42,149 nucleotides of DNA from a virus, in the IMG/VR virus record IMGVR_UViG_3300006108_000610, positions 1-42,149 of that record; one strand, written 5' to 3'. This document shows, one piece after another, positions 8,239-41,156 of the stretch. Position 1 is the first letter of the stretch. Every line of letters begins with the position of its first letter. The notes below the pieces were generated by a model. That model had not been told where the DNA came from and did no database searches. It saw only the letters and a list, made by a program, of their open reading frames with translations. A program made the position numbers and the translations under genes.

Positions 8239-8239
8239 T

Positions 8240-8542: not shown

Positions 8543-8548
8543 TAAATA
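8541..8548 (+). promoter_or_regulatory. Possible late promoter (AATAAATA)
   Basis: AATAAATA overlaps the stop of the preceding gene, 33 bases before the decarboxylase start. It differs from the T4 late consensus at one position. Weak evidence on its own; similar boxes elsewhere in the window precede isolated genes. Confidence 0.3.
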
Positions 8549-8580
8549 AGACACTATTGCTCGCACCTATGGAGAAAGAA

Positions 8581-8943: not shown

Positions 8944-8958
8944 AAGTAAGGATATATT

Positions 8959-9798
8959 ATGAGTGAATTGATTTGGTCAGACTTCGATATTAATTCAGAA
9001 AACTCTCAAAAGATGATTAAAGCAAAGCAGGTCAATGGCCCAGACTATTGGCCTACTATGCGAGAAGTTTTCAAGTATGATTGTAACCATCTACCGTTGC
9101 CACGATTTCGTTTGTGGGCTTCTTGTTGGAATGTTCCATTCATTACTCAGTATAGAACTTCAAGATTCTTAGGTGAAGCATTCTATCATGCAGCACGCGA
9201 TCCTGCAATTGCTTCTGCTCTTGAAGAAAACTGGATAGGTGCTCCTGATCATATAAGAGATGCTCTACGAGTAGCATCTGACTTCGATACATCTATGCAG
9301 CGTATTCAAGATGTCGCTCATCTTTGTATTACTGGCTTTGCTCATGAACTCAAGAACTATAAATCAATTGTAGAAATTGGTGCTGGTTATGGAGATATGT
9401 GTTCGGTAGTTCATGACATGGGTTTCAGAGGCGAATATACTATCGTTGATATTCCAGAGACTCAGCCTCTTCAAAATTATTATCTTGGTAAGCAAGAAAT
9501 TGAACCTAAGTGGTCATTTGAAGACGATAATGTAACACATGCTGATCTTGTTATTGCTACTTGGTCATTGTCAGAGACTCCAGTTGAGTATAGAAATAAG
9601 TTGATGCCTAAGATTGAGAAGTCAAAGAACTGGCTTATCCTCGCTCAGTCTGCTATCTTTGGCGAAGCAGTGAACGATGATTACTTTAATAAGTTCTTTG
9701 CTGATAAGAATGTTGAGACCATTCCTCTTGTTAGTAGTGGCTTAGATAAATGGGATGGAGGCAATACATATTATGTCGTCAGAGAAAAGCAGAAATAA
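8959..9798 (+). CDS. Putative sugar O-methyltransferase
   Basis: 279 residues. The N-terminal half is helical (YWPTMREVFKY, WNVPFITQYRT); the C-terminal half is a SAM-binding fold with motif I IVEIGAGYGDM and an acidic strand YTIVDIPETQ. The DIPETQ signature and the LVIATWSLSETP segment match the putative sugar O-methyltransferase group found in polysaccharide gene clusters. It is first in a continuous sugar operon (8959-14626) and overlaps the next gene by 26 bases. It may methylate a heptose or other sugar made by the downstream enzymes. The substrate is inference. Confidence 0.75.
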   Translation: MSELIWSDFDINSENSQKMIKAKQVNGPDYWPTMREVFKYDCNHLPLPRFRLWASCWNVPFITQYRTSRFLGEAFYHAARDPAIASALEENWIGAPDHIRDALRVASDFDTSMQRIQDVAHLCITGFAHELKNYKSIVEIGAGYGDMCSVVHDMGFRGEYTIVDIPETQPLQNYYLGKQEIEPKWSFEDDNVTHADLVIATWSLSETPVEYRNKLMPKIEKSKNWLILAQSAIFGEAVNDDYFNKFFADKNVETIPLVSSGLDKWDGGNTYYVVREKQK

Positions 9799-10234
9799 AG
9801 TTACCATCGGTATTACATTCGGAGCATTTGAGCTCTGCCATGCTGGTCATGTCGCCATGCTTAATGAATGTAAGAAGCAATGTCATTGGTTGATAGTAGG
9901 ATTACAAACAGATCCTACTATTGATCGTCCAGGTGTAAAGAACAAACCTATACAGACTACATATGAAAGGTGGATGCAACTTCAAGCATTGAAAGCAGTT
10001 GATGAAGTTATTCCATATGACACTGAAGAAGACCTTCTGAATATGTTATCAATGCTTCATATTGATAAGAGATTCATTGGTTCAGATTATAAAGATGTAG
10101 AAATAAACGGTGCTGATATTTGCAGAGCAAAAAACATAGAAGTAGTGTATATCGAAAGACTACATACATATTCATCGAGCGAATTAAGAAGAAGGTTGAA
10201 TAATGCAAATACTGGAAATGGTAAGACAAGCTGA
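9773..10234 (+). CDS. Cytidylyltransferase-family nucleotidyltransferase (HldE-C/TagD-like)
   Basis: 153 residues from the ATG at 9773, preceded by ggagg inside the upstream gene. Motifs of the HxGH nucleotidyltransferases are clear: TFGAFELCHAGHV (HAGH at 23-26), the middle VGLQTDPTIDR with an ERWMQLQAL segment, then IGSDY and the end motif YSSSELRRR. The family includes heptose-1-phosphate adenylyltransferase and glycerol-3-phosphate cytidylyltransferase. Among genes for a heptose isomerase, kinase and phosphatase, activation of heptose 1-phosphate to an NDP-heptose is the most economical reading. The nucleotide cannot be decided here. Overlaps both neighbours. Confidence 0.82.
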   Translation: MSSEKSRNKVTIGITFGAFELCHAGHVAMLNECKKQCHWLIVGLQTDPTIDRPGVKNKPIQTTYERWMQLQALKAVDEVIPYDTEEDLLNMLSMLHIDKRFIGSDYKDVEINGADICRAKNIEVVYIERLHTYSSSELRRRLNNANTGNGKTS

Positions 10235-10757
10235 ACGTGTTATCGGAGAATTAGTCGCATTCGTTCCTCCAGAAGGAGATGGACTATATCTTGAATTTGG
10301 TGTTGCTTCAGGAACGACCATTCATAGAATAGCTGTTACAACTAAGAATAAAGTATATGGGTTTGATTCTTTTCAAGGATTACCTGAAGACTGGGAAGGA
10401 TATATAGAAGTAAAGGGTGCATATGCCTGTGATATTCCTACAGGATTACCCGAAAACGTAGAACTGGTAGTTGGATTATTTGAAGACACATTACCAAAGT
10501 TCTTAAAGAAACATAAAGAAAACGTAACATTCCTCCATATTGATTGCGATATCTATTCTTCAACTAAATGTATATTTGACAATTTGAAAAAGAGAATTGT
10601 TCCAGGAACAGTTATTGCTTTTGATGAGTTGTATGGTTATCCTAATTGGGAACAACACGAGTATAGAGCATTTAAAGAGTTCCTTGCAGAAACTAAGTAT
10701 AATGTTGAATGCATCGGTAAGTTCGGTGCACATCAGGCGGCGTTTAAAATTCTATAG
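10203..10757 (+). CDS. TylF-type SAM-dependent methyltransferase
   Basis: 184 residues. Motif I is LYLEFGVASGTTIHRI, followed by VYGFDSFQGLPEDW, a signature of the TylF/macrocin O-methyltransferase group, and metal-site-like IDCDIYSS and AFDELYG. Members methylate hydroxyls of sugars in antibiotics and capsules. It overlaps the preceding nucleotidyltransferase by 32 bases and precedes the isomerase gene by 14, where the start is marked by aggattatatattatg. A role in decorating the heptose product is inference. Confidence 0.8.
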   Translation: MQILEMVRQAERVIGELVAFVPPEGDGLYLEFGVASGTTIHRIAVTTKNKVYGFDSFQGLPEDWEGYIEVKGAYACDIPTGLPENVELVVGLFEDTLPKFLKKHKENVTFLHIDCDIYSSTKCIFDNLKKRIVPGTVIAFDELYGYPNWEQHEYRAFKEFLAETKYNVECIGKFGAHQAAFKIL

Positions 10758-10771
10758 AAGGATTATATATT

Positions 10772-11356
10772 ATGAGTCATACGGATGAATATTTCAATGA
10801 GGTAGTAAGTATTGCACAATCAATCGACACACAAAAGATCGAGATCATGGCGAGAGTCCTTGATGATATTCGGAAAAGTGGTGGCCGTGTATTTGTTCTT
10901 GGGGTGGGTGGGTCTGCTGGTAACGCTTCCCATATGGTTAACGACCTTAGAAAACTATGTAACATCCAATCATATTGCCCTACCGACAATGTTCCGGAAC
11001 TTACCGCACGAACAAACGATGAGGGATTCGATACTATCTTTGAGGAATACTTAAAGGTAAGTAACTTCGGTCACAAAGATGCATTGTTCATTCTTTCTGT
11101 TGGTGGCGGTAACAAAGCTAAGAACGTATCTGTAAGTCTTTGTAAGGCAATTGATCTTGCTACAAAAGAAGGCGCTCATGTCCTTGGTATCGTTGGTAAG
11201 ACAGACGGTTACACTTATACGATGGGTAACTGTGTGATCGCTGTTCCTAAAGTAAACGATTCTCGTATCACTCCACATTCAGAAGCATTCCAAGCAGTTG
11301 TTTGGCATTGTCTTGTTTCTAATCCTATTCTTCAGAAGAGGGAGACTAAGTGGTGA
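10772..11356 (+). CDS. gmhA: Phosphoheptose isomerase-like SIS protein
   Basis: 194 residues of the sugar isomerase (SIS) fold: FVLGVGGSAGNASHM, then PTDNVPELTARTNDEG, FILSVGGGNKAKNVS and the end RITPHSEAFQAVVWH. This pattern matches the capsule-cluster branch of sedoheptulose-7-phosphate isomerases. In the classical E. coli enzyme the catalytic pair is Glu and His; the Glu position here is Asp (NDL) and the His position is shifted, so a variant active site is possible. The expected reaction is sedoheptulose 7-phosphate to D-glycero-D-manno-heptose 7-phosphate. The stop overlaps the next gene's start. Confidence 0.8.
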   Translation: MSHTDEYFNEVVSIAQSIDTQKIEIMARVLDDIRKSGGRVFVLGVGGSAGNASHMVNDLRKLCNIQSYCPTDNVPELTARTNDEGFDTIFEEYLKVSNFGHKDALFILSVGGGNKAKNVSVSLCKAIDLATKEGAHVLGIVGKTDGYTYTMGNCVIAVPKVNDSRITPHSEAFQAVVWHCLVSNPILQKRETKW

Positions 11357-11892
11357 AGGCAATCTTTTTAGATCGCGATGGAACTATTAATACACTTATT
11401 CGTGATAGAGAAAATCCAAAGCATGTATGTCCATGGGATTATTCAGAGTTCAGATATATTGATGGTGTGAAAGAAGCAGTTGACTCTTTCCGTGCATGCG
11501 GTTATAATATTCATGTTGTTACTAATCAACCAGACATTGACGATGGTTATACAACTGAAGAAACTATGAATAAGATCCATGAGGATATTGCTAACTATCT
11601 TCATGTAGATTCTATTCAAGCTGCAAGAACTCGTGGCACTGATACATATAAACCAAATCCAGGTATGATTAATAATGTATGTAAAGACTTTGGTGTTAAT
11701 AGAGAAAAGTCTTGGATGATCGGTGATACTTGGAGAGATGTTGTCTCTGGTCATCGTGCTGGTGTGAAGACTATATATCTTGGTGGTGCTTATCTTCCTC
11801 CAGAAGAATATAAAGATATCCAACCAACTCATATAGCAATTGATCTAAAAGAAGCTGCATTGATTATTCAACAGATTGAAGGTGGCAGATGA
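11350..11892 (+). CDS. gmhB: Heptose 1,7-bisphosphate phosphatase-like HAD enzyme
   Basis: 180 residues with all HAD motifs: FLDRDGTIN (nucleophile and acid aspartates), HVVTNQPDI for motif II, a YKPNPGM lysine and IGDTWRDV for motif IV. DRDGTIN is the hallmark of the histidinol/heptose-bisphosphate phosphatase branch. It would remove the C7 phosphate from heptose 1,7-bisphosphate. The start is GTG at 11350 or 11353; the second gives a GTGA overlap with the isomerase stop, and both share ggag as ribosome site. It overlaps the next gene by ATGA. Confidence 0.86.
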   Translation: MVKAIFLDRDGTINTLIRDRENPKHVCPWDYSEFRYIDGVKEAVDSFRACGYNIHVVTNQPDIDDGYTTEETMNKIHEDIANYLHVDSIQAARTRGTDTYKPNPGMINNVCKDFGVNREKSWMIGDTWRDVVSGHRAGVKTIYLGGAYLPPEEYKDIQPTHIAIDLKEAALIIQQIEGGR

Positions 11893-12620
11893 ATATAGAA
11901 ATTTATGCTGATGGCGCTGACTATAAAGGTATTATGGAAGCAGCCAAAAATGATAGGATCACTGGTTTCACTACTAACCCAACATTGATGAAAGCTGCAG
12001 GTGTAACTGATTACCAAAAGTTCGCTGTTGGTATTATTCAAGAGCTTGCACATTTCAGACCAGACACTAATATCTCTCTTGAAGTATTTGCTGATGATAC
12101 TGAGTCAATGTATCTTCAGGCAAAGAAGATCAAGTCATGGGGAGATGCTGCTGGTTACGATGTGTTCGTTAAGATACCTGTAATGAATACAAAAGGCGAG
12201 CATAACTACGGACTGGTTGAGAAGTTATCGGCAGAAGGCGTTAAGGTAAATGTTACTGCTATATTCACACCAGAGCAAACACATAGAGTCCTACAAGCAT
12301 TAGATACTGTCACACCAGCTATTGTTTCTATCTTTGCTGGTCGTATTGCTGATGCTGGTGTTGATCCTGAGTGGAAAGTAACTGAGTGTATGCGAAAGAA
12401 CTTTGAGCACCCAAGACCACATGCTAAGTTTCTTTGGGCGTCAACAAGAGAAGTATTTAACCTAATCCAAGCTGAACGTGTTGGTTGTGATATTATTACT
12501 ATGACCCATGATCAGATTAAGAAGCTAAATAATATTGGTAAAGACCTTACTGAGTTTTCCCAAGATACAGTGAAGATGTTCTACAACGATGCTCTCGCAT
12601 CTGGATATAATATTGACTAA
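11889..12620 (+). CDS. tal: Transaldolase-like protein
   Basis: 243 residues of an aldolase barrel: TGFTTNPTLM near the N-terminus, the Schiff-base lysine K95 in VFVKIPV, VNVTAIFTPEQ and SIFAGRIADAG. This matches short transaldolases (TalC/fructose-6-phosphate aldolase type) also carried by cyanophages. Transaldolase moves a three-carbon unit and can form sedoheptulose 7-phosphate from fructose 6-phosphate and erythrose 4-phosphate. Its position between the phosphatase and kinase genes suggests it feeds the heptose pathway rather than serving the host pentose cycle; that is inference. Confidence 0.88.
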   Translation: MNIEIYADGADYKGIMEAAKNDRITGFTTNPTLMKAAGVTDYQKFAVGIIQELAHFRPDTNISLEVFADDTESMYLQAKKIKSWGDAAGYDVFVKIPVMNTKGEHNYGLVEKLSAEGVKVNVTAIFTPEQTHRVLQALDTVTPAIVSIFAGRIADAGVDPEWKVTECMRKNFEHPRPHAKFLWASTREVFNLIQAERVGCDIITMTHDQIKKLNNIGKDLTEFSQDTVKMFYNDALASGYNID

Positions 12621-12629
12621 GGAGTTGTT

Positions 12630-13634
12630 ATGAAAGGGTTTGAAGAGAATGAGATCTCCATTAATGCTAATGGAGGCACTGAGATCGCCAAGCGTAAGTT
12701 GGCTTCTATTATTGATCCTGAGCTATTAGATAACTTTCAGATTATATGCTCGCGCCCACGTGAACTCGACGAAAGCAAGATTCGTGTATTCTGGTGTCAT
12801 GATCTACCAGAGGATCCAGAGTGTAAGAAGTTCCAGGATAAGAACTGGCTTGCTAAATTTCATAAGTTCGTGTTTATTTCTAACTGGCAGATGCAGCGTT
12901 ATCAGCTTATTCATGGACTACCGCAAGATCTAAAGTCTATTGTTCTTGAATCAGGTATTGAACCTGCTCCTCAGACTTGTTTAGAAAAACCAAAAGATAA
13001 GATCCGTATTGTTTATACTTCAACCCCACAACGTGGTCTTGAGTTACTGCTGCCAGTATTTGAACATTTGGCAGAAAAACATCCTAACATTCATCTTGAT
13101 GTATTCTCTTCATTTAAGATCTATGGTTGGGAAGATGCAGATAAACAGTTCGAGCCTTTATATGAGCGTGTTCGTAAACATCCTCAGATGACTTATCACG
13201 GATTCGTTCCTAATGAACAACTCAAGGAACATCTGAATAAGTCGCATATCTTTGCTTATCCTTCTATCTGGACAGAGACTTCATGTCGTGCGATGCTTGA
13301 GGCAATGTCAGCTGGTCTGCTTTGTGTTCATCCTAATACAGCTGCTCTTCCAGAATCATCTGGTGGTTTGAATATTATGTATCATGCAGATCTTACTGAT
13401 GCTAATGTTCACGCTGGTGTGTTTGCTGGTAATCTATTTGCTGCTATTAAGATGATTGAGGATAATAACGAGCAACATACTATTAACTTTAATAAAGTTT
13501 ATGTTGACTCTCGTTATAATATTGATTTTGTAAAGTCTCGCTGGGATGCTGTTCTTAATAGACTTCTTGTTGAGTATCCTGATGCTGAATCAAGAAAGTT
13601 TCCTGCGGAGATGTTTTCCTATAAGGTAGGATAA
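12630..13634 (+). CDS. Glycosyltransferase, GT4-like (GT-B fold)
   Basis: 334 residues. The N-terminal domain has FWCHDLPEDP and FVFISNWQMQRY; the C-terminal domain has the nucleotide-sugar site YTSTPQRGLELLLPVF, then FAYPSIWTETSCRAMLEAMSAG with an EX7E motif, and PNTAALPES. These are features of retaining GT4 enzymes. The likely donor is the NDP-heptose of this operon; the acceptor may be host surface glycan, a phage structural protein or modified DNA. It begins after aaggag and its end overlaps the kinase gene by one base. Confidence 0.85.
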   Translation: MKGFEENEISINANGGTEIAKRKLASIIDPELLDNFQIICSRPRELDESKIRVFWCHDLPEDPECKKFQDKNWLAKFHKFVFISNWQMQRYQLIHGLPQDLKSIVLESGIEPAPQTCLEKPKDKIRIVYTSTPQRGLELLLPVFEHLAEKHPNIHLDVFSSFKIYGWEDADKQFEPLYERVRKHPQMTYHGFVPNEQLKEHLNKSHIFAYPSIWTETSCRAMLEAMSAGLLCVHPNTAALPESSGGLNIMYHADLTDANVHAGVFAGNLFAAIKMIEDNNEQHTINFNKVYVDSRYNIDFVKSRWDAVLNRLLVEYPDAESRKFPAEMFSYKVG

Positions 13635-14626
13635 TGATTGTAACTCGAACACCACTACGTATTAGTTTCTTCTCTGGCGGTAGCGATATGCCATCTTTCT
13701 ATGAAAAGGAGGATGGTGCTGCCCTCTCTGTAACGATCAACAAGTTTATTCATGTATTCATGCATAGAGCACCTCATATGGGTGTTAAGGCAATGTATGA
13801 TTCTGTTGAAGAACTGTATGATGTCGAACAGATGCAGCACGCTATTACTCGAGAGACACTGAAGTATTTCGGCATTGAAAGAGAAGTAACTACCGCATCC
13901 ATTTCAGATATTGCTTCGAGGGGTTCTGGACTCGGTAGTTCTTCTGCTTTCACTGTTGGTCTTGTAAAAGCAATGTCTTCTTACAGCTATGATACATTCA
14001 CAAGAGATCAAATGGCAGAGGTCGCTTGTAATATTGAAATGAATAAGTGTGGTTATCCTGTAGGTAAGCAGGATCAATATGCAGCTGCATTTGGTGGATT
14101 AAATCTATTTCACTTCAAACGTAATGGCACAGTAAAGGTTGAAGAGTATAGTTTAACAAATCCTAATGTTAAAAGATTAGAACAGAACCTAATGCTTGTT
14201 TATTCTGGCAGAGGAAGAGATGCTAATAACATTCTACAGAAACAACAGAAGGCAATGTCAAACTCTGAAAAGTTTGATCTTGTAAGAAAGTCCAGAGACA
14301 AAGCATTCACTGCCAGAGATCTATTACTTGCTGGTAAGGTTGATGAGTTCGGTCGTCTTCTTCATGAAGGATGGATGGACAAGAAGAATGTATGTGCTGA
14401 TATTACTCAGGATTATTTTGATAATATATACAATACTGCTATTGACTCAGGTGCTCTCGGGGGTAAACTACTCGGAGCAGGTGGCGGTGGCTTCTTCATC
14501 TTTTATGTTCCAGAGAACCGTAGGACTTCTGTAGAAGGAGCTATCTCATCAAAACATATCGACTGTAGGATATACGATTTTGAGTTTTTCGGTACTGGAG
14601 CAAGTATCGTCTACCATCAAATTTAA
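13634..14626 (+). CDS. hddA: D-glycero-D-manno-heptose 7-phosphate kinase-like GHMP kinase
   Basis: 330 residues of the GHMP kinase family, with an HddA-like N-terminus VTRTPLRISFFSGGSDMPSF. The ATP loop is SRGSGLGSSSAFTVGL; a C-terminal glycine-rich motif is GALGGKLLGAGGGGFF. HddA phosphorylates heptose 7-phosphate at C1 with ATP, the step between the isomerase and phosphatase encoded in the same operon. Related sugar kinases for fucose share the fold, but the combination with GmhA- and GmhB-like genes favours heptose. It is the last gene of the sugar operon. Confidence 0.87.
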   Translation: MIVTRTPLRISFFSGGSDMPSFYEKEDGAALSVTINKFIHVFMHRAPHMGVKAMYDSVEELYDVEQMQHAITRETLKYFGIEREVTTASISDIASRGSGLGSSSAFTVGLVKAMSSYSYDTFTRDQMAEVACNIEMNKCGYPVGKQDQYAAAFGGLNLFHFKRNGTVKVEEYSLTNPNVKRLEQNLMLVYSGRGRDANNILQKQQKAMSNSEKFDLVRKSRDKAFTARDLLLAGKVDEFGRLLHEGWMDKKNVCADITQDYFDNIYNTAIDSGALGGKLLGAGGGGFFIFYVPENRRTSVEGAISSKHIDCRIYDFEFFGTGASIVYHQI

Positions 14627-20620: not shown

Positions 20621-21556
20621 TTATGCTATCTTCATTTGTTTCTTTGTCTGTTGTATGTATTGTTCTCTTATCTGTTCACCAATATCAATCATACAACAAT
20701 CTCCGCAGTTTCTACCAGAAACAACATAATTTAAAACAATGTGTTTCATATTAACAAATGGATCTTCAGATATATAAAACTCTGAAGTATCAACTCCAAA
20801 CTTTTTCAGTAAGTGTGCTGAACCCATAACATACGGTAGGAATGCACTAAAAGGAATATTATGAAATCTACAGAATTCTTTATATTTATCTGGATATCCT
20901 TTAGCTAAACTATGTAGAACAGAGTATATTGTTCCAAGTTTATTGTCAAGTCGTTTTGACATAAATATATCCCCAACATCTGTAACAAGGCCATTGTAAG
21001 ATATATCTTCTATAGAATTCTTATCCCAAACAAAATTCCAATTGCTATTGATCATATACTCGAGCAAATCGTATAATTCTTTTGGGTCACCAACATCTTT
21101 ATACTTAACACGTTTGCATTTATAATTTAAGATGAAATAATACTGGCCGTTCTCTTTATCATAATTAACAGCCTTAATAACCTCAGCTGAAGATCTTTCG
21201 AATTCCTCTGAGTTTTCAATGATGGATAATTCTTTAACGCCACAAGATCCAATAAAGTCTGTAAAAGTAGGTTGATATACTTCTTGAAAAAGACCAGACT
21301 TACCAGCAAAACAATCTTTGCTGACTAATGGTCCAAGATAAAAGATATTCAATTTATCATCAAGAATAGTATAACCATCTAATTGTTTCGTATCTGTGAT
21401 TGGAGGAAGAACATGACACTTATAGGTCGCACCAAGTCCTTTATAAAAGAGCTTGTCTCCTTTAGTAACCCTACCTGAAATAAATTCAAGATTGTCGTTG
21501 ATCTCTAACTTATCGACGACAACACCATTCTTATCATGAATAGGAACAATTGTCAT
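20621..21556 (-). CDS. Unrecognised protein (311 aa)
   Basis: No family recognised. The N-terminal third looks beta-rich and may hold a small barrel (VVVDKLEINDNLEFISGRVTKGDKLFY). The middle and C-terminal parts are helical, with a HNIPFSAFLPYVMGSAHLLKKFG segment and a near-terminal cysteine cluster (GRNCGDCCMIDIGEQ) that could bind metal. It begins by TAATG overlap with the oxygenase gene upstream, suggesting the two products act together. No signal or membrane segment. Confidence 0.6.
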   Translation of the reverse strand: MTIVPIHDKNGVVVDKLEINDNLEFISGRVTKGDKLFYKGLGATYKCHVLPPITDTKQLDGYTILDDKLNIFYLGPLVSKDCFAGKSGLFQEVYQPTFTDFIGSCGVKELSIIENSEEFERSSAEVIKAVNYDKENGQYYFILNYKCKRVKYKDVGDPKELYDLLEYMINSNWNFVWDKNSIEDISYNGLVTDVGDIFMSKRLDNKLGTIYSVLHSLAKGYPDKYKEFCRFHNIPFSAFLPYVMGSAHLLKKFGVDTSEFYISEDPFVNMKHIVLNYVVSGRNCGDCCMIDIGEQIREQYIQQTKKQMKIA

Positions 21557-22116
21557 TACATAGACTTTTCATTTAGATGCATGTATGAAGAAAGCAAGAA
21601 CTTCTCTCCTTTAATAACTGGATAACCAATATGTGGGAACATCCAGAATGGAGGAAATATAAGGAGCTTACCTTTTTCTGGTTTTACTTTCAATCCAATA
21701 CTTGTTATCTCAGTCTCTCCACCTTCTTCAACATCATTAAGATACCAGAAGAAAATAAGAAATCGTCTTGCTGAATCAAGAGTCTTGACATCAACATGTT
21801 CGTCAAATCTATCCTTGCCACCAGCAGAATAATGTTTAACTCTGAAACTCTCAAAGTTGAACTTATCTGGCCAGAACTTACTCTCTGGAACATCTTTCTT
21901 ATATTGATCAAGTGCTGCAAGAGCATGATCAACCAAATACTTATGTAGATTTAGATTGATGTTTCTATTAGAAGTAAAGTCAAATTGATCCATATTAGGA
22001 TAACCGTTCTGGTCATATCTATTATGGATATCTTTGGTCTTTTCGTATATCTGGATCAACTGATCGCACACTTGATGTGGCAAGCTGTTATGGTATGTGC
22101 GAACAAATCTATCCAT
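21556..22116 (-). CDS. 2OG-Fe(II) oxygenase, prolyl 4-hydroxylase-like
   Basis: 186 residues. Iron ligands H107 and D109 lie in DEHVDV and H162 in FPHIGYPV; K172 (GEKFLLSSY) is in the place where this family has Arg or Lys for 2-oxoglutarate. The pattern FFWYLNDVEEGGETE is characteristic of the prolyl 4-hydroxylase alpha-like branch found in T4-like phages. Protein hydroxylation is the usual inference, with unknown target. It is translationally coupled to the unrecognised downstream gene. Confidence 0.85.
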   Translation of the reverse strand: MDRFVRTYHNSLPHQVCDQLIQIYEKTKDIHNRYDQNGYPNMDQFDFTSNRNINLNLHKYLVDHALAALDQYKKDVPESKFWPDKFNFESFRVKHYSAGGKDRFDEHVDVKTLDSARRFLIFFWYLNDVEEGGETEITSIGLKVKPEKGKLLIFPPFWMFPHIGYPVIKGEKFLLSSYMHLNEKSM

Positions 22117-29031: not shown

Positions 29032-29943
29032 TCACTTACGTTTCGCTGCTACTTTTTTAACTTTGTTAGTCGAATGAAACTTCTTATCTTGGTTTTTTTT
29101 ATTGCCTAATGCACCTGGATCAGCTGTAGCCGAAGCACCGATAGAAGCAAGATCAGCTAATGAACCACCAAAGATATAAGTGCCAACATGTTGCATCTTC
29201 ATCCATGGACAGAACCAAGTCTTAAGTTCGATCTCTTGAGCTTTCTGACAGAACCAATAATCCTCTGAAAGATAACGGTTGGACTTCTCACAAACCTCAG
29301 CCTGGAAGAACATTAGAATCTTACGAGAACCATCGAAGTGTTCAGTACGAACATGATCAGGAGTATACAGATAACGATCCTTGTAAGAATCATAGAACTT
29401 CTGCATAGCCTTCTTAGATACCATCATGAAGCCAGTACCAATCTCAAGAACCTCTACTGGTTGATTAAGAGGAATAGACGTCTGTCCACCTTTTGGATTA
29501 AACACATAATCACCGACAAAGTTCTCAAGAACATTAGGATCCTTATCTGCGATACCCTTATCTACTGCCAGCTTAATCTTTTCCCAAGAGATACATTTCT
29601 TAGGATAAGGACCACCGATAATATCATACTTCTCATCTTGAGCTTGAAGAGCCATCATAGCAATAATGTCATGTGGATTAAATCCAATGTCCGAGTCGAT
29701 AAACATCAGATGCTCTGCCTCTGAACGCATGAACTCATCGCAGCAATAGTTACGTGCGCGAGTAATCAGAGACTCATTAAACAGATAATAGAACTGGAGA
29801 GGAATACCATACTGAGCACAAAGAGCAGCTAAGTCAGCTGTCGATTTAGCAAACATACCTGCGCACTGACCACCATACATTGGCGTCGCAATAAACAACT
29901 TACGCTTGCGAAGCTCTTCAATCGGAATTTGAATTTGTTCCAT
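29032..29943 (-). CDS. GT-A-like glycosyltransferase
   Basis: 303 residues. The N-terminal domain begins LFIATPMYGGQCAG, carries RARNYCCDEFMRSEAEHLMFIDSD with the metal-binding DSD at 83-85, and later MQHVGTY; this is the pattern of GT-A glycosyltransferases found in T4-like phages. The C-terminus is Lys-rich (KNQDKKFHSTNKVKKVAAKRK) and could bind DNA. It follows the hypermodification genes in the same direction and could put a sugar on a hydroxylated base; the acceptor is unproven. Starts after aaaggtga. Confidence 0.75.
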   Translation of the reverse strand: MEQIQIPIEELRKRKLFIATPMYGGQCAGMFAKSTADLAALCAQYGIPLQFYYLFNESLITRARNYCCDEFMRSEAEHLMFIDSDIGFNPHDIIAMMALQAQDEKYDIIGGPYPKKCISWEKIKLAVDKGIADKDPNVLENFVGDYVFNPKGGQTSIPLNQPVEVLEIGTGFMMVSKKAMQKFYDSYKDRYLYTPDHVRTEHFDGSRKILMFFQAEVCEKSNRYLSEDYWFCQKAQEIELKTWFCPWMKMQHVGTYIFGGSLADLASIGASATADPGALGNKKNQDKKFHSTNKVKKVAAKRK

Positions 29944-29959
29944 ACTATAGTCACCTTTC

Positions 29960-30187
29960 TTATGCTAAAATATAATTCGAATACTTACAGGAATTACAAT
30001 GAACTTTTTTCTGGGCTGGGTGAGTCGTTAGAATAACTCCTGGATTAGTTTCTATTAACTCATCTCCACAATCTGGGCACTGAACACCAGTACCAACTCT
30101 TTCTAATATTCTGAACTTATCTTTATTATGCTCTTCTAATGACTTCGACATTACCTTTTCAAAGAACTTCTTAGTATATGTTGTCAT
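29960..30187 (-). CDS. Zinc-ribbon protein (75 aa)
   Basis: A basic helical N-terminus (YTKKFFEKVMSKSLEEHNKDKF) and a zinc ribbon with CPDC and CNSC pairs 22 residues apart. It starts after aagga within the end of the upstream gene. It might guide DNA or protein recognition for its operon partners. Function not known. Confidence 0.7.
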   Translation of the reverse strand: MTTYTKKFFEKVMSKSLEEHNKDKFRILERVGTGVQCPDCGDELIETNPGVILTTHPAQKKVHCNSCKYSNYILA

Positions 30188-30570
30188 TTCGAATCCTTAT
30201 AATGGTCAACATAAAGACACATCAATACATAATGAAGAGTCTTCATAAGATCATCCTTATTAGATCCCTTCTTCTTACCATAACGCCACAGATACTTTAG
30301 AGCGGTGTTACGGAATGTAGGCATAGAATCACCAAGAGCAATCCAGGCGTCGAAACATTCAACTGCTTCTTCTTCTGTCTTATAGTGCTGATTGTATGTC
30401 TTATCTATATATGCTTGGAAGTCGGAGATAATCTTATTTTCGGCATATTTATATTTTGGAGATTGATCAACCATCACCGTTTTATATGGTGTTCCATTTT
30501 CAAAAGTATATGTTGCTCTATGGTCTCCAAGACCTCCAGTTGAAGTATACATTGTATTTCCGTATTCCAT
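30184..30570 (-). CDS. DUF3310-like nucleotide-kinase-like protein
   Basis: 128 residues starting at the second of two adjacent ATGs (30570), behind ggagg. The C-terminal pattern (ECFDAWIALGDSMPTFRNTALKYLWRYGKKKGSNKDDLMKTLHYV) matches the small phage domain that ends with LKYLWRYGKK and a DL(M/K)K helix, often annotated DUF3310. Its N-terminus differs (GGLGDHRATYTFENGTPY). It overlaps the kinase gene by one base. Role unknown. Confidence 0.75.
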   Translation of the reverse strand: MEYGNTMYTSTGGLGDHRATYTFENGTPYKTVMVDQSPKYKYAENKIISDFQAYIDKTYNQHYKTEEEAVECFDAWIALGDSMPTFRNTALKYLWRYGKKKGSNKDDLMKTLHYVLMCLYVDHYKDSK

Positions 30571-31106
30571 CATGCCTCCAATCTATTCATAATATAGTCT
30601 ACTATAATTTCTTGATCTTGTAAAGTATTATTTTTAAATTTAGATGTATTAAACATCAGTGTCATATTAGAAAGAATATTAGCGATCTTAGATTCTCTAC
30701 CACGGAGCCATGTTTCATTCTGATTAGATCCACGCTCCTTATAACGATCCTCACGAATAGACTTATCTGTCTCGAGATATAGAATATCAGTGTCGTAGTT
30801 CTCAACACAATGTTCAAGAAAAGAGGCAGTGAAGAGGCGATCGCCTTCAAATAGAACAACAGCGTCGCTCGGAAGGGTAGCTAAGAACTTCACTGCCTCT
30901 GGCTGGACGGCCATAGACATCCTGTCAGTACCAGAGAATGTCTCGCCATCTTCATATTTGCCCAAAACGTAATAATTACTGCACTGTAAATATGGAACTA
31001 ATTTGAAATTAGTATATTGTTCTTTCCAATCTAACTTAGAAAGAATCTGTTTCATCAATGTGGACTTACCAGCGCCTGGTTCACCACCGATAGCGATTAC
31101 TCTCAT
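30570..31106 (-). CDS. P-loop kinase, candidate DNA-base (5-hydroxymethyluracil) kinase
   Basis: 178 residues. Walker A is GEPGAGKST at 8-16 after MRVIAIG; an acidic strand VVLFEGDRLF and a lid-like segment DRYKERGSNQNETWLRGRESK follow. This resembles the P-loop kinases that phosphorylate 5-hydroxymethyl-dU in DNA of hypermodified phages. Closely spaced with a JBP/TET-like dioxygenase and a pyrophosphorylase-like gene, that assignment is plausible. It could instead be a small-molecule kinase, for example for inositol phosphate or a nucleotide. Overlaps both neighbours by 4 bases or fewer. Confidence 0.68.
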   Translation of the reverse strand: MRVIAIGGEPGAGKSTLMKQILSKLDWKEQYTNFKLVPYLQCSNYYVLGKYEDGETFSGTDRMSMAVQPEAVKFLATLPSDAVVLFEGDRLFTASFLEHCVENYDTDILYLETDKSIREDRYKERGSNQNETWLRGRESKIANILSNMTLMFNTSKFKNNTLQDQEIIVDYIMNRLEA

Positions 31107-31483
31107 TTACGTCTCACATTCTCTTTGTTAACAAGATCTGAAACAACATGAACAATACGGATGTCAGGGATTAATCTCTTAATCTCTGCTATCTGAACTT
31201 CATCATCTTCAAAATGAACTCCGTGTTCATATCCTTTTTGTTTTAACTGAATTATTGTTCTTGCTTTATGTATACCAGAAGACTCTCTTGACTTCTCATC
31301 AAATTTCTCTGGGTTGAAATATACTTTATTCTTAATACCCTTGCGATTCAACATCGCAAGAGTTTCTTCTGTCTCTTCGTAGCTTCTGCCTGTAATGATG
31401 ATATCGATGGGACCTGGATAGATCCCATCGTGTTCTTCTAAGAAGATAACACCATCAATATCGAAAGTGTTAATCTTACGCAT
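31103..31483 (-). CDS. Small HAD-superfamily phosphatase
   Basis: 126 residues. Motif I is FDIDGVIF (D8, D10), motif II IIITGRS, a lysine in GIHKARTI, and motif IV HFEDDEVQ (91-95). No cap domain, so it probably acts on an accessible or macromolecular substrate. It overlaps the inositol-phosphate synthase gene by 8 bases, and removal of the phosphate from inositol 1-phosphate is an attractive guess. Other HAD proteins of this size occur in phages as 5'-nucleotidase or polynucleotide phosphatase-like enzymes. Confidence 0.78.
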   Translation of the reverse strand: MRKINTFDIDGVIFLEEHDGIYPGPIDIIITGRSYEETEETLAMLNRKGIKNKVYFNPEKFDEKSRESSGIHKARTIIQLKQKGYEHGVHFEDDEVQIAEIKRLIPDIRIVHVVSDLVNKENVRRK

Positions 31484-32603
31484 AGTAGTTCTTAGCCTTT
31501 AGAGCGTTTGTGTCACGTTCAGCGAAAGCAGCACATTCAGCTTTAGCATCTGAATATTGCATCTGCTGCGGAGGAGTCTTCTGAGTCCAAGCAGAAGGAC
31601 CACGGAGAGCACCAACGATACCCATCTCCTTAGCAACCTTCAGATAACGGATAGCATCAATAACAACGCCAGCAGAATTCTCTGAATCTTGAACAGAGAG
31701 TTTAGCATCAATTGTAATAGGAGCATCACCGAAACCACGGAGACGGATGTTAAGATAAGCAACCTTGTTATCTTTTAGATAAGGAATAAAGGTTGACGGA
31801 CCAGCGAACAATGCTTCTGAATCAATAGGAATACCACGGAGATCATTCTGAGCACGAATAACATTCTCTTTTGACTTCTTCTTAGAAGCAAGACGGCTCT
31901 GAACCATCATGTTATTGAAGTCAGAGTTACCGCCAACATTCAGCTGCTGATGGAAGTCTACAATAGCACCACGATCAAATGCAAGCTCTTGAAGAACCTG
32001 CGAGAGAATAGAAGCACCAACCTGCGAACGCATGTCATCGCCAACGATAGGCAGACCTGCGTCAATGAACTTCTTCTCCCATTTAGGATCAGAAGCGATG
32101 AAGACAGGAATACAATTTAAGAAAGATACACCAGCGTCGATAGCACACTGAGCATAGAACTCTGTTGCTTCTTGCGAACCGACTGGTAGATAATTAATAA
32201 GGATCTCTGCACGAGATTCTTTCAGAGCAGCGACAACGTCAACTGCTTCTTCATTAGAAACACGGAAACCATATTTCTCTGGTTGAGACTGCATATACTC
32301 AGAAACACCATCAAGCACAGGACCCATCTGAACGATTGGACCATCTGGAACATCATCACAGAATACACGAGCACAGTTTGGCTTTGCGAAAATAGCTTCG
32401 CCAAGAGGACGGCCAACCTTACGACGATCAACGTCGAATGCTGCTACAACTTTAATATCGGAAGGATGATAACCACCGATACGTGAAAACATAATACCAG
32501 GAATGTTCTCTTCGTCGTGATCTTTGTAATACTCAAGACCTTGATAGAGAGACGACAGACAGTTACCAACGCCAACAACGGCGACACGAATTTTCTTAGA
32601 CAT
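31476..32603 (-). CDS. ino1: Myo-inositol-1-phosphate synthase
   Basis: 375 residues, closely resembling the actinobacterial and archaeal-type enzyme. The NAD site is VAVVGVGNCLSSLYQGLEYY; then VVAAFDVDRRKVG, INYLPVGSQEATEFYAQCAIDAG, NCIPVFIASDP, GDDMRSQVGASI, QLNVGGNSDFNNM and LRLRGFGDAP-like IRLRGFGDAPI, GVVIDAIRYLK. It converts glucose 6-phosphate to inositol 1-phosphate with internal NAD. Inositol synthesis is uncommon in bacteria other than actinobacteria and rare in phages. It lies in an operon with a JBP/TET-like dioxygenase, kinase and HAD phosphatase, so inositol may be a group added to DNA. It starts after aaaggagaaaa. Confidence 0.94.
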   Translation of the reverse strand: MSKKIRVAVVGVGNCLSSLYQGLEYYKDHDEENIPGIMFSRIGGYHPSDIKVVAAFDVDRRKVGRPLGEAIFAKPNCARVFCDDVPDGPIVQMGPVLDGVSEYMQSQPEKYGFRVSNEEAVDVVAALKESRAEILINYLPVGSQEATEFYAQCAIDAGVSFLNCIPVFIASDPKWEKKFIDAGLPIVGDDMRSQVGASILSQVLQELAFDRGAIVDFHQQLNVGGNSDFNNMMVQSRLASKKKSKENVIRAQNDLRGIPIDSEALFAGPSTFIPYLKDNKVAYLNIRLRGFGDAPITIDAKLSVQDSENSAGVVIDAIRYLKVAKEMGIVGALRGPSAWTQKTPPQQMQYSDAKAECAAFAERDTNALKAKNYYA

Positions 32604-32685
32604 TTTTTCTCCTTTATGTCAGTTTTTTAACGAGAGAGGTCTTGACTGGAGTAAGAGTAGCTCTCGGTGCTTTCACACAATTATT

Positions 32686-32714
32686 ATATTACTATGAACA
32701 ATAAGAAAAGTCAA
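32686..32714 (-). promoter_or_regulatory. Sigma70-type promoter for the inositol synthase operon
   Basis: On the minus strand TTGACT (32714-32709), 17 bases, TAATAT (32691-32686), overlapping the end of the upstream gene. The remaining 80 bases to the start at 32603 form a leader in which I see no other element. Confidence 0.55.
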
Positions 32715-33960
32715 CTGCTTTATCACTCCAAGCAGGATGATCTTTTGGTTTAAATTTTAGATAGTTTACAGGATTATACTTCTTACATAACACCTTTCTT
32801 TTCTTGACATCAAAAGATTGCTCCCATTCGCTTTTCATAGTATGAGCAGCTGTAGGTATAATCTTAGGAAGCTCTAACAACTCATGAGCGTTTAACTCAT
32901 CCTTATAAAGATGATGAGTATTAAGATTAAGACCTGTATTCACCATTACCTTAAAGTAGTCTGGATGAAAACCATAGTCCGTAACATTTTTACCTTTCGT
33001 CATAAACCCAACAACATATGGAGTCCAATCAACCTTACCTGGACCATCATAATCTTTCCAAAGATCTAATAACTTATCATACATCTCTACCAATTCATTA
33101 GTAGTCCAGAATGTAAACTCCTTAATCTTAGGACCATAGGCAGTCTTACGAAACTCACACTCAACTGATTCGATATTGTATATGTCAACGTGAAAAGGCA
33201 TTCTCCTATTCATTTCTTCCATAAGATGAATAGTATTCTTTTCCATTAACTGCTTATCTGCTTTGGTTGGTTCATAGGTCTTAACTTCAAGAACATGACC
33301 GTACTCGTCAGTAATTTTCTGCTTACGAGCAATATCAATTCTATTGAAAAGATAACAAATAGAATCATACTGAGACCAAGTAGCATTATCATATAACTGC
33401 TGATCCCAATGATCAATATCCCAATCAAACAATTCATAAAGAGTCTGTTGAGCGAGCCAAGCAGTCATTCTGCCCATTGAATAGAATTCTTGTAAGCAGT
33501 TATTTAAAGAGAAGTAGTTCTTTTCTCTTGAACCAGCATTAGCAGCATTACCAAGATACTCATATAGGCTACCTTTGCCTATACGCTTTTTCATATCAAT
33601 AACAAACTGTGGAAACTTACGAACATTCCACTTAGTATCATTACCGAATTTCATTCTACGCCAATTCTTATTATGCCAATCAATTAACTGATCGTCAGAC
33701 ATATTCCAAAGATCTAACTGCATAGCAATCATTGACCAATGGTTACGGTAAGACTGACCGAAATACATAGCATAAAGAGCTTTCTGCTCATTATCATAAT
33801 TGGAGTAATCACATATTACTTTACCAACGTGGTGGTGATCGAGATCGCCTTCAACAAAACGAACATGCGTAACACGAGCGAACGCTTCAATTCTATTTTC
33901 AGGCAATCTCCAATCTACATAACCAGGAAGATCTCTAACCTTAACATAATCTAAATTCAT
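32692..33960 (-). CDS. Candidate thymine pyrophosphorylase/transferase-like protein (aGPT-Pplase clade)
   Basis: 422 residues, mostly helical, rich in Trp, Tyr and Asp. The region YFGQSYRNHWSMIAMQ, then FGNDTKWNVRKFPQF and FYSMGRMTAWLAQQTLYEL with a following WSQYDSICYLFNR resembles the alpha-glutamyl/putrescinyl thymine pyrophosphorylase proteins, a DNA-glycosylase-related fold used by phages to replace an activated base group by an amino acid or polyamine. I cannot confirm the family without a profile search. It overlaps the dioxygenase gene by ATGA and probably acts on its product. Confidence 0.55.
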   Translation of the reverse strand: MNLDYVKVRDLPGYVDWRLPENRIEAFARVTHVRFVEGDLDHHHVGKVICDYSNYDNEQKALYAMYFGQSYRNHWSMIAMQLDLWNMSDDQLIDWHNKNWRRMKFGNDTKWNVRKFPQFVIDMKKRIGKGSLYEYLGNAANAGSREKNYFSLNNCLQEFYSMGRMTAWLAQQTLYELFDWDIDHWDQQLYDNATWSQYDSICYLFNRIDIARKQKITDEYGHVLEVKTYEPTKADKQLMEKNTIHLMEEMNRRMPFHVDIYNIESVECEFRKTAYGPKIKEFTFWTTNELVEMYDKLLDLWKDYDGPGKVDWTPYVVGFMTKGKNVTDYGFHPDYFKVMVNTGLNLNTHHLYKDELNAHELLELPKIIPTAAHTMKSEWEQSFDVKKRKVLCKKYNPVNYLKFKPKDHPAWSDKAVDFSYCS

Positions 33961-35330
33961 CCGAAAAATGACTCCAGGTTTGCTTCTTCAGCTTTGCCAT
34001 AAGGATCCTTCATACCATGCGCATGAAGATAATCATACCACTCTTTACTTTCCCACATACCAGGAGACACGCCATTCCACAATGGGCGTTGAAGATGATG
34101 AGATTTATTCAATCTACGTTCATCAACAAACTGTCTACGTAGAACTTCATACTCATAAGATTTTAACTCTAACATCTTTTCACGGAAGTAACAAACTACC
34201 GAGATTCTTTCGCAATTAGGATTATCAGGGCTATTAAGTATAATAGGAGTATTACCATGTATGATTTCATGGTTATTAACGAGAAGAAGATCGCCAGGAC
34301 GGACGTTAACAGCAACACGATATTCAGGAAATATAAGATAACCACCAGTGTATTCTCCTGTTCCTAAGACAAGTAGATTAGAAAGACCAGAATCAAGATC
34401 TCCGGCATCTCTATGAGCAGCTGTACGGAAAGTCTTATTCACTGTAATAGTTGTGAACACAGTTTCCGGTACAAGAAATCTTGGATCCATTTTATCCGCA
34501 GCTGCCTTCTGATTAGCCCAACGCCATGGCAACAGTTCTTTGAAACCTCTGTTAAGAGATTGTAAGAATGGATACGATTTAGCAAATAGTTCTGGATTTT
34601 TTTCAGTATAAGCAGTAGCACGACCATAAGGAATACGAGGATAACGGTCATACCAACCAGCAACACCAGAGAATACTGACTTAGCATAGTTAGTTGTTGA
34701 TGCCCACTTCTCAGCTACCTTTATAGCTTCTGCACGGATATCCTCTTTTGGCTTATTAGATAAACCATCAACCCATTTATCAAACCATCCATGATACTCA
34801 GGATATACTTTAGTTACCTCTGAACGTAACCAAACAGTTCCTCTTGTTTCATCTGCTGGTTTGAACTTAGGATCGGCGTATTTTGCACGGATCTTTTCAA
34901 TTGAGTTATCATTAAACAGAGATGCTCCGTCATCCATAAGAAACTCAAGAATCTCATGTTGATAAGGCGAAACCCAATCTCTACCACCTCTGCCTTCACA
35001 TGCTAACATTGGCCCACGAGGACCAGCAGCAAGACCACGATTCTGCGATTCGGTTGCAGCTTCTCTTAAGCCAACATATGCTTCTTCACATTCTTCTTTT
35101 GTAAAGTAGTTCTTACGTAACTTAAATGCGATACGAAGTTCATCATTACCCTTATCGCAGTCTTCACACTCTTTGGAGCCACAATCTGCCTTTGTTGCAA
35201 CATCACATAATGGAGGCATATAACAATCACAATCCTCCTCAATCAACTTATCATAATGACTTTCATCAAGAAAAGTTCCAAGAAGATGTTCACAATCTAA
35301 TTTTTCACGAGCAACAATACGTCTTACCAT
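33957..35330 (-). CDS. JBP/TET-like 2OG-Fe(II) dioxygenase, candidate DNA base hydroxylase
   Basis: 457 residues starting at the ATG at 35330, 6 bases after ggagg; an in-frame ATG at 35348 would lie at the transcript end. The C-terminal domain has HRD at 306-308 (AAHRDAGDLDSGLSNLLVLG), GGYLIFPEYRVAV, PGDLLLVNNHEIIHGN (H358) and R375 in CERISVV, the order and spacing of JBP1/TET enzymes that oxidise thymine or 5-methylcytosine in DNA. The N-terminus has seven cysteines (DCDCYMPPLCD, ADCGSKECEDCD) that may bind zinc. A consensus promoter lies upstream. The base modified is unknown. Confidence 0.82.
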   Translation of the reverse strand: MVRRIVAREKLDCEHLLGTFLDESHYDKLIEEDCDCYMPPLCDVATKADCGSKECEDCDKGNDELRIAFKLRKNYFTKEECEEAYVGLREAATESQNRGLAAGPRGPMLACEGRGGRDWVSPYQHEILEFLMDDGASLFNDNSIEKIRAKYADPKFKPADETRGTVWLRSEVTKVYPEYHGWFDKWVDGLSNKPKEDIRAEAIKVAEKWASTTNYAKSVFSGVAGWYDRYPRIPYGRATAYTEKNPELFAKSYPFLQSLNRGFKELLPWRWANQKAAADKMDPRFLVPETVFTTITVNKTFRTAAHRDAGDLDSGLSNLLVLGTGEYTGGYLIFPEYRVAVNVRPGDLLLVNNHEIIHGNTPIILNSPDNPNCERISVVCYFREKMLELKSYEYEVLRRQFVDERRLNKSHHLQRPLWNGVSPGMWESKEWYDYLHAHGMKDPYGKAEEANLESFFG

Positions 35331-35357
35331 CACGGCCTCCAAATACATTCATCATAT

Positions 35358-35385
35358 ATTATATAGTAAATTATCAAATTGTCAA
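35358..35385 (-). promoter_or_regulatory. Consensus sigma70 promoter
   Basis: On the minus strand TTGACA (35385-35380), 16 bases, TATAAT (35363-35358): both boxes match the consensus exactly. Transcription should start near 35351, just before the ribosome site of the dioxygenase gene. Strongest promoter seen in the window. Confidence 0.9.
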
Positions 35386-40541: not shown

Positions 40542-41156
40542 TTAGTAGACTATGCTCTGTGCATGATACTTATATGTACCCTTCATCATAATATTAAATG
40601 CTACTGATATTCTTTCTTCTTCAGATTGACCAGCAAAAACATCATGTGGAAGCCATGAAGGAAACATTAGCATTTCTCCTGTAGTTGGATGTAATTCATA
40701 TATACCCATATTAGCGTCGTTAACTCTTTCGTATTCTGGATTAATAATGTTCTTAGCTGGCCTTGGATCCATTAATCTTAATTTACCGCAATTCTTTGGA
40801 GCTTTTGCATAGAAAACACCAGAAAAGAAAGAATTCTGATGTATATGAGTGGAAAGACTATAGTTAGATGTTGTTATATAAGACCACATAGAAGTAATAT
40901 AATGACGGTCTCTCTTTACTGCATAGAAGTCGAAAGCAAAAGCAGATTCTTCTATAATCATCTTACACAACTCAGAGAATTCTGTTAGCTCATGTAGATT
41001 ATCATCAGTAACGAAATTATTATCATCACCTCTGTAGAATGTTCCTTTTCTAAGGTCTCTTATGTTTCTAGCAGCGTCTTCAATTCTATTACATAAACTT
41101 ATATCTTTCACAAAACTCCTATGAATAAATGTAGGAAACAAGGCTATAGTGTTCAT
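40542..41156 (-). CDS. 2OG-Fe(II) oxygenase-like protein
   Basis: 204 residues. It has the pattern of the cyanophage-type oxygenases: LSTHIHQNSFFSGVFYAKAP (H104, H106), GKLRLMDPRP, GEMLMFPSWLPHDVFAG (H171) and ERISVAFN (R182). The iron ligands fit HxN/H ... H rather than the usual HxD, so activity is uncertain. T4-like phages often carry this gene beside uvsW or gp55. It overlaps uvsW by 4 bases. Substrate unknown. Confidence 0.78.
   Translation of the reverse strand: MNTIALFPTFIHRSFVKDISLCNRIEDAARNIRDLRKGTFYRGDDNNFVTDDNLHELTEFSELCKMIIEESAFAFDFYAVKRDRHYITSMWSYITTSNYSLSTHIHQNSFFSGVFYAKAPKNCGKLRLMDPRPAKNIINPEYERVNDANMGIYELHPTTGEMLMFPSWLPHDVFAGQSEEERISVAFNIMMKGTYKYHAQSIVY

Follow-up and report, generated by a model that had tools for sequence, protein, structure and literature searches.

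A TET/JBP-type dioxygenase operon with inositol synthesis genes in a T4-like phage, a candidate pathway to an inositol-bearing DNA base

RESULTS

A five-gene operon in a T4-like phage

We analyzed the whole of IMG/VR record IMGVR_UViG_3300006108_000610 (42,149 bases, probably a fragment; here called the window), which carries on its minus strand, at positions 30570 to 35348, five open reading frames (ORFs) arranged as one leftward unit: a TET/JBP-type dioxygenase, a helical transferase, an inositol-3-phosphate synthase (IPS), a small HAD phosphatase, and a P-loop kinase. The phage is T4-like, with late sigma factor, UvsW-type helicase, and clamp-loader families and with a gene order around its clamp and gp46/gp47-like genes that is common to the T4-like phage DLP6. 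Neighboring genes of the operon overlap by 4 to 8 bp, the exception being an 88-bp gap between transferase and IPS. Four of the five proteins (all but HAD) pass curated Pfam cut-offs, and the set recurs in the Caulobacter phage Cr30 and in many contigs; we therefore rejected chance or artefact as its origin and treat the operon as real. The five genes very likely rebuild a DNA base and attach a bulky group to it.

The dioxygenase (33957 to 35348, minus strand) is a 2-oxoglutarate/Fe(II) enzyme of the TET/JBP type, a predicted thymine hydroxylase acting on DNA, and matches Pfam Tet_JBP at 7.7e-24 (84.2 bits; cut-off, 34.9). Its ORF comprises 463 amino acids; the methionine that every one of the 23 aligned rows keeps is its seventh residue, which puts the probable gene start at 35330. 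Across the 23 aligned dioxygenases, H312, D314, and H364 never vary, and R381 is kept in at least 90% of the rows. When the family profile was matched to human TET2 (7.4e-5), these four residues lined up with the HxD...H iron ligands and the 2-oxoglutarate-binding Arg of that enzyme. The protein is predicted to oxidize the 5-methyl group of a pyrimidine in DNA. Two more window genes, at 40542 to 41156 and 21556 to 22116 (both minus strand), match PHROG families of 2OG-Fe(II) oxygenases.

Next in the operon is a helical protein (32692 to 33960, minus strand) of the amino acid:DNA transferase group (Pfam ADDT, 2.5e-10; 40.9 bits against a cut-off of 26.2). Its sequence profile found no credible match among solved structures, and we turned to an AlphaFold2 model built from 33 window and contig sequences (mean pLDDT, 89). 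The best PDB match of this model was 8z2m (Foldseek E, 1.1e-2; probability, 1.00; next row, 0.04), the 5-phosphomethyl-2'-deoxyuridine glycinyltransferase (PUGT) of Pseudomonas phage PaMx11, and a VIA comparison with 8z2m gave Z 15.3 and a root mean square deviation (rmsd) of 3.4 over 246 residues, with the next family at Z 9.7. The Foldseek E-values for this model and for the HAD model described below are not below 0.001, and the VIA comparisons are second looks that leave room for other folds. Among predicted viral proteins the transferase model had seven matches with E of 0.001 or less, of which the two with names are both ADDT-domain proteins. Because of this fold match and these named relatives, the modeled protein very probably removes the phosphate from a 5-phosphomethyl pyrimidine in DNA and puts another group in its place; in the pathway proposed below, the base would be 5-phosphomethyluracil and the nucleophile inositol.

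The last gene encodes a P-loop kinase (30570 to 31106, minus strand; Ploopntkinase3, PF18751, 2.3e-13; 50.5 bits, cut-off 27), predicted to phosphorylate the 5-hydroxymethyl group in DNA. G8, P10, G13, K14, and 13 other positions are invariant in 21 aligned rows. The helical domain HMUDK_hel had no match in the kinase or anywhere in the window (0/1). The 5-hydroxymethyldeoxyuridine (5-hmdU) DNA kinases of the M6 type presumably carry that domain, judging from the name of the family, and we therefore describe the window protein as working like such a kinase and do not file it in that family.

These results largely bear out the initial annotation of the region, which had placed a leftward five-gene set here and read it as base hypermodification. 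All five ORFs are present; the HRD, HGN, and Arg ligands that it saw in JBP/TET spacing agree with the conserved residues and the TET2 alignment; and its pyrophosphorylase/transferase-like helical protein has an ADDT profile and a 5-phosphomethyldeoxyuridine glycinyltransferase fold. Profile searches placed the dioxygenase and the helical protein inside the TET/JBP and amino acid:DNA transferase groups, respectively, and not outside them. The profiles, with the glycinyltransferase as best fold match, support the hypermodification interpretation as a whole. One correction concerns the kinase, in which the P-loop domain was found and the 5-hmdU-kinase helical domain was not.

Inositol-phosphate synthase and a small phosphatase

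The third gene (31476 to 32603, minus strand) encodes an Ino1-type IPS (Pfam Inos-1-P_synth, 2.9e-21; 76.1 bits, cut-off 27). Its closest solved relative is INO1 of Mycobacterium tuberculosis (1gr0; 2.1e-107, 363 bits), and it keeps the GVGNC, NVGGNxDFxNM, SKKxSK, and FGDxP...DSxNSAGV stretches aligned with that structure, the first three of which cover the NAD-binding and the lysine-rich active-site parts of INO1. The IPS homologue could also make another cyclitol, which would then be the group attached. The second-best solved relative, 6k96 (5.7e-61, 210 bits), is a five-membered cyclitol phosphate synthase, and the equivalog model TIGR03450 (mycothiol_INO1) was matched below its cut-off (376.9 versus 638 bits), so we do not file the protein as a mycothiol-pathway enzyme. 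INO1 is nevertheless much the closer relative and its conserved stretches are kept; we regard a different cyclitol as highly improbable.

The fourth gene (31103 to 31483, minus strand) encodes a small cap-less HAD phosphatase, predicted to act on inositol phosphate. Its sequence passed no Pfam cut-off (Acid_phosphat_B, 0.0095) and matched nothing credible among solved structures (best E, 0.28); among PHROGs it matched phrog_415, polynucleotide kinase, at 5e-11. D8, D10, K73, E92, D93, and D94 are invariant and T31 nearly so in 34 aligned rows, and the model (pLDDT, 94) has a clear minimal HAD fold, with Pnkp phosphatase domains as its closest matches (Z 12.9, rmsd 2.1, 110 residues). Both the inositol-phosphate synthase and the HAD phosphatase of the initial annotation are thus recovered, the former by its Pfam family and INO1 stretches and the latter by motif residues and modeled fold.

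IPS and HAD occur together with great regularity. In a scan led by the HAD protein (best 80 of 366 relatives), IPS was in the locus in 78 of 80 cases and within 300 bp in 70 of those; in the other two (L192 and L217) HAD is near the start of the available sequence, so IPS may simply lie outside. Merging near-copies reduced 145 IPS-bearing loci to 74 distinct ones, a count from which genome-contig loci were left out, and HAD is in the locus of 71 of these 74. This pairing makes the two genes one functional unit, which would most simply supply inositol, and from it we infer that HAD is specific for inositol phosphate. The Pnkp-like fold and the phrog_415 match would also suit a DNA phosphatase, for example one clearing unused 5-phosphomethyl groups, or a scheme in which inositol is attached as its phosphate, with a phosphodiester link or with inositol taken from the host. 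We judge these variants distinctly unlikely, given how regularly IPS accompanies HAD, the presence of HAD in eight of the nine 7-deazaguanine IPS groups described below, where no ADDT protein or kinase of the window family was seen, and its presence in a bacterial surface-polymer cluster.

Proposed pathway

In the pathway that we propose, the TET/JBP enzyme would hydroxylate the thymine methyl in replicated DNA to yield 5-hydroxymethyluracil, and the P-loop kinase would phosphorylate the 5-hydroxymethyl hydroxyl, turning it into a leaving group. IPS would convert glucose-6-phosphate to inositol-3-phosphate, from which the HAD phosphatase would free myo-inositol; the ADDT-family protein would then displace the phosphate with an inositol hydroxyl, leaving 5-(inositolyloxymethyl)uracil in DNA. 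Glycosyltransferases and FkbM methyltransferases would probably decorate this base further in some relatives. We favor, with moderate confidence, reading the operon as a thymine-hypermodification pathway ending in an inositol-bearing base. The benefit of such a modification is probably resistance to restriction. No hydroxymethyltransferase had been noticed at first annotation, and PF00303 has no match in the window either (0/1, in a 42-kb record that is probably a fragment).

A slot in which modification cassettes are exchanged

Immediately downstream of the kinase, a gene for a DUF3310-like protein (30184 to 30573, minus strand; phrog_480, 2.2e-22) stands outside the pathway and marks the edge of a slot: from this gene onward, the flank recurs beside different cassettes in relatives, and whatever lies between the dioxygenase gene and the DUF3310/clamp flank is exchanged as a whole. 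Our TET-led scan used the best 80 of 266 relatives, and the counts from it describe those 80; cassettes were compared over 75 closed TET loci, one per contig and taken as whole loci, with the 28 of 103 TET loci whose cassette was unclosed left out. One type, found in 20 of the 75, consists of a TET-associated glycosyltransferase (TAGT) alone. Others combine the kinase with an amidotransferase-GNAT set and a different ADDT branch, or with an aGPT-Pplase3-like protein, or have the ADDT-synthase-HAD-kinase arrangement of the window, to which some relatives add an FkbM methyltransferase or a GT-B glycosyltransferase. The amidotransferase type is seen in L081 (3080 to 8038) and its relatives as TET-amidotransferase-c6-GNAT-c12-ADDT-kinase, with its own ADDT branch, and is another hypermodification set, one not known to us from earlier work. 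A glycosyltransferase-like gene in the window (29032 to 29943, minus strand; phrog_1574) adjoins the clamp gene in relatives with different cassettes.

Kinase and transferase were both present in 47 of the 75 closed loci and both absent from 25; two had the kinase only and one the transferase only, so that the kinase is found in 47 of 48 loci with a transferase. Cr30, L016, and L017 carry the two genes outside the strict slot and were counted over the whole locus. With near-copies merged, 37 loci remained (both, 25; neither, 10; one gene only, 1 + 1). All 20 TAGT-only loci lack kinase and transferase anywhere in the locus, which is what direct use of a sugar nucleotide would predict. The co-occurrence fits the order of hydroxylation, phosphorylation, and replacement that the initial annotation had put forward, and the two traits change 9 and 10 times on the TET tree.

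Inositol genes track the transferase and recur with other base chemistries

Scans led by three transferase branches found IPS in the locus in 23 of 24 cases (18/19, 3/3, and 2/2), the single locus without it ending inside the transferase. On a tree of 34 transferases, the 21 beside IPS and the 13 without it fall on opposite sides of one branch (support, 100/96), and the IPS side includes proteins about 20% identical to that of the window. The tree sample came partly through the IPS scan, which favors this association; the transferase-led scans are free of that bias, with many contigs common to both.

Inositol synthesis inside the set, one of the features first annotated here, is present, but it is not peculiar to the window and recurs with several base-modification systems. 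Of the 74 distinct IPS genes, 34 stand with TET/ADDT/kinase genes, and one of these has a helical-domain protein as well. Another 25 stand with an HMUDK_hel protein and/or c22, a protein without assigned function, and in 9 of these loci a C5-cytosine methylase is present too; 9 more stand with QueC and FolE genes of the 7-deazaguanine type. A single PHROG family, 17781, contains c22 as well as the helical-domain protein, and the two are for this reason probably partners. The other six IPS genes have no modification gene set in view: L042 and L043 have the kinase, L045 has a ThyA-family gene, L041 has a left flank common to the 7-deazaguanine locus L040, and in L221 and L222 the sequence ends just behind HAD. 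In related phage backbones, all three types occupy the same slot before the DUF3310/clamp genes, in the window (TET), in L223 and L049 (methylase), and in L056 (7-deazaguanine). Among 50,697 phage records, 18 contain IPS, all from Cr30 or Stenotrophomonas phages, and in the two of these that were opened, Cr30 and Moby, it lies in modification clusters.

A broader reading, which we advance tentatively and to which we give somewhat less than even weight, is that a mobile IPS-HAD pair feeds free inositol to at least three unrelated base chemistries exchanging in one slot. These would be thymine by way of TET, kinase, and transferase, cytosine by way of a C5-methylase and an HMUDK_hel-like protein, and 7-deazaguanine, and inositol would be a general building block of phage DNA.

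The cassette IPS-HAD-HMUDK_hel-c22-C5-methylase of L223, L049, and L231 to L234, which in L223 and L049 lies in the TET-cassette slot, is apparently an uncharacterized second inositol-linked modification cassette. In L059 (about 8001 to 9212; same contig as L150 and L216), the IPS gene is called as separate pieces, as a frameshift or an interruption would produce.

The modified base and the appended group

Thymine is the likely base, since PF00145 (C5-methylase) was found in none of 18 TET-bearing records (10 + 8) nor in the window (0/1). The same search did detect the domain in the records of L030 and L223 and in 10 of 14 control genomes. The 18 include four complete named phages, and most of the others may be fragments. 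In L066 and L068, a ThyA-family protein and a P-loop protein stand near a 54% identical transferase, IPS, and HAD, and TET had no match in the 39.8-kb record of L068. Taken together, the absence of the methylase and the ThyA-family protein of these two loci favor a route through 5-hydroxymethyluracil. PF00303 was found in 1 of 10 TET-bearing records, that of Cr30.

Several observations weigh against the proposed pathway, some concerning the base and others the appended group or the comparative data. The PF00303 match in Cr30 is a ThyA-family gene of its own, annotated as thymidylate synthase. In Methylophilales phage Melnitz, TET, an adjacent C5-methylase, and a 34% identical kinase lie together within about 4 kb, so the kinase family of the window is not restricted to thymine. 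With TET enzymes of other viruses acting on 5-methylcytosine, host methylation possible, and most records perhaps fragments, the base could be cytosine: TET would oxidize 5-methylcytosine made by a methylase of the host or by an unseen one of the phage, and kinase and transferase would act on 5-hydroxymethylcytosine. We hold this to be very unlikely in view of the missing C5-methylase, which the same search did detect in most control genomes, of a transferase fold that is that of a 5-phosphomethyl-deoxyuridine enzyme, and of the ThyA-family protein that stands in for TET in L066 and L068.

As to the appended group, the solved relative of the transferase (8z2m) moves glycine, not inositol, and its other characterized relatives presumably move amino acids or amines. 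The HAD fold, moreover, is nearest to that of a nucleic-acid phosphatase, so its substrate could be DNA. Nor is the IPS-HAD pair DNA-specific, since in the Coriobacteriales contig L230 (6847 to 8369) an IPS 73% and a HAD 55% identical to those of the window lie in a cell-surface-polymer cluster among ABC exporter, glycerophosphotransferase, and glycosyltransferase genes; there the pair probably serves surface polymers, and it might have the same role in a phage. The operon could accordingly carry out an ordinary amino-acid or amine hypermodification of thymine, as in PaMx11, ViI, and phiW-14, while IPS and HAD serve a host lipid, a surface polymer, or an osmolyte, and the window does have a gene for SAM decarboxylase, a polyamine enzyme. 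However, IPS keeps to one side of the transferase tree, nearly every transferase-led match has it in the locus, and IPS-HAD is also found, in the same slot, with two other base chemistries. We consider an amine or amino-acid product unlikely and continue to prefer an inositol-bearing thymine.

The kinase-transferase counts rest on related phages: strongly supported branches leave four independent pairs, on which a phylogeny-aware test found a mean of 3.5 in agreement and 0 in disagreement (median p, 0.125), too few for significance. The transferase tree carries a long-branch warning for the group of Cr30 beside that of the window. In line with resistance to restriction as the benefit, DLP6, whose TET is 52% identical to that of the window, has DNA entered as restriction resistant in a table of one review, as does Smp14, grouped with Menderavirus phages (PMC8228603). 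The DLP6 genome gave no ADDT match, however, so this resistance can at most be credited to the dioxygenase and not to the whole pathway. What the computation shows is the family, fold, and ligand residues of the enzymes, their joint occurrence, and the exchange of the cassette; thymine as the base, the order of the steps, inositol as the nucleophile, and protection of the DNA from restriction are inferred.

Other features of the window

Just upstream of the operon lies a sigma-70-like promoter match (35358 to 35385, minus strand; TTGACA-16-TATAAT, 12 of 12 positions). We rejected a conserved operon promoter, as matches of at least 10 of 12 positions occurred in 21 of 71 distinct TET upstream regions, inside the range of eight control genes (6/48 to 19/36).

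A nucleotide-heptose synthesis set with a GT-B glycosyltransferase occupies 9755 to 14626 on the plus strand (Pfam CTP_transf_like, SIS_2, HAD, TAL_FSA, Glycos_transf_1, and GHMP kinase). It encodes a nucleotidyltransferase, an SIS isomerase, a HAD phosphatase, a transaldolase, the GT-B protein, and a GHMP/HddA-like kinase and has O-methyltransferase-like neighbors. The kinase matched HddA model NF049969 at 3.3e-45, below the cut-off of that model, and an HddA-like kinase was found in 9 of 25 records searched, including Cr30. This set is a possible source of a further sugar for the operon product, a link that is conjectural. In S-CBWM1, a phosphoheptose isomerase gene lies two genes behind the TET gene.

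DISCUSSION

The recurrent gene pairing described here predicts a class of DNA base in which inositol would be attached to thymine, perhaps also to two further bases. If this is true, whole families of environmental T4-like phages would have inositol-decorated genomes, partly further glycosylated or methylated. A hotspot in T4-like phages that swaps whole base-modification pathways also ties gene content to chemistry and to defense against host restriction. Public annotations hide the pathway: in records of Cr30, DLP6, S-CBWM1, and mycobacteriophages, the dioxygenase is called an SNF2 DNA repair protein and the kinase a terminase small subunit or an adenylate kinase.

We know of no report of inositol as a component of DNA. 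Our literature search returned no paper joining inositol to this chemistry, though key papers of the field lay outside the search, so absence from print is not established. Iyer and colleagues reportedly predicted in 2013 a TET/JBP-based hypermodification in phages that starts from TET/JBP-made hydroxymethylpyrimidine, and we know of no inositol synthase in that proposal.

The nearest solved system is that of PaMx11, whose PUGT (gp46, 8z2m) has the transferase fold of the window and the same predicted leaving-group chemistry, at only 10% identity. PaMx11 presumably has a kinase partner and makes its 5-hydroxymethyl group in the nucleotide pool; the window differs in its TET/JBP hydroxylation in DNA, its kinase without the helical domain, and its IPS and HAD. 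For phages M6, ViI, and phiW-14, likewise, we know of no inositol synthase. Unlike in the window, 5-hmdU is thought to enter their DNA during replication, and the groups appended carry amines. Two papers describe for these phages the kind of route proposed for the window, in which a DNA kinase phosphorylates 5-hmdU in DNA and transferases carry out the further modification (PMC6449724, PMC5977210). According to the former, the ViI base, 5-(2-aminoethoxy)methyl-dU, is O-linked (PMC6449724), a precedent for the O-linked product proposed here, and according to the latter, a phiW-14 mutant accumulates a pyrophosphorylated intermediate (PMC5977210).

Parts of the set are found in other cultured phages. 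Genes 2 to 5 of Mycobacterium phage LilMcDreamy, which precede terminase in a single run, encode ADDT, Ploopntkinase3, and a TET whose weak match stays below the cut-off, with an Asp/Arg-hydroxylase-like gene and no IPS-HAD in that run, unlike in the window. Stenotrophomonas phages of the genus Menderavirus (Moby, IME-SM1, and Ps15) have an IPS 63 to 65% identical to that of the window (16 records), and Moby and IME-SM1 have a HAD 53 to 54% identical; in Moby, IPS-HAD lies inside a GTP cyclohydrolase/QueC/Tgt/QueE cluster and not, as in the window, with TET. The authors of a study of Ps15 treat its que genes as queuosine/7-deazaguanine genes and its IPS as presumably bacterial (PMC9025141). 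The cultured phage closest in content is Cr30, which infects Caulobacter crescentus and shares all five operon genes within 9 kb (TET 46%, transferase 28%, IPS 50%, HAD 53%, and kinase 35% identical); its cluster differs in also containing a dATP/dGTP pyrophosphohydrolase and a TAGT-like glycosyltransferase, which has 28% identity to the TAGT representative. Set beside these systems, the TET/JBP pathway class was predicted before and the kinase-transferase chemistry is known, whereas inositol as the appended group appears to be new.

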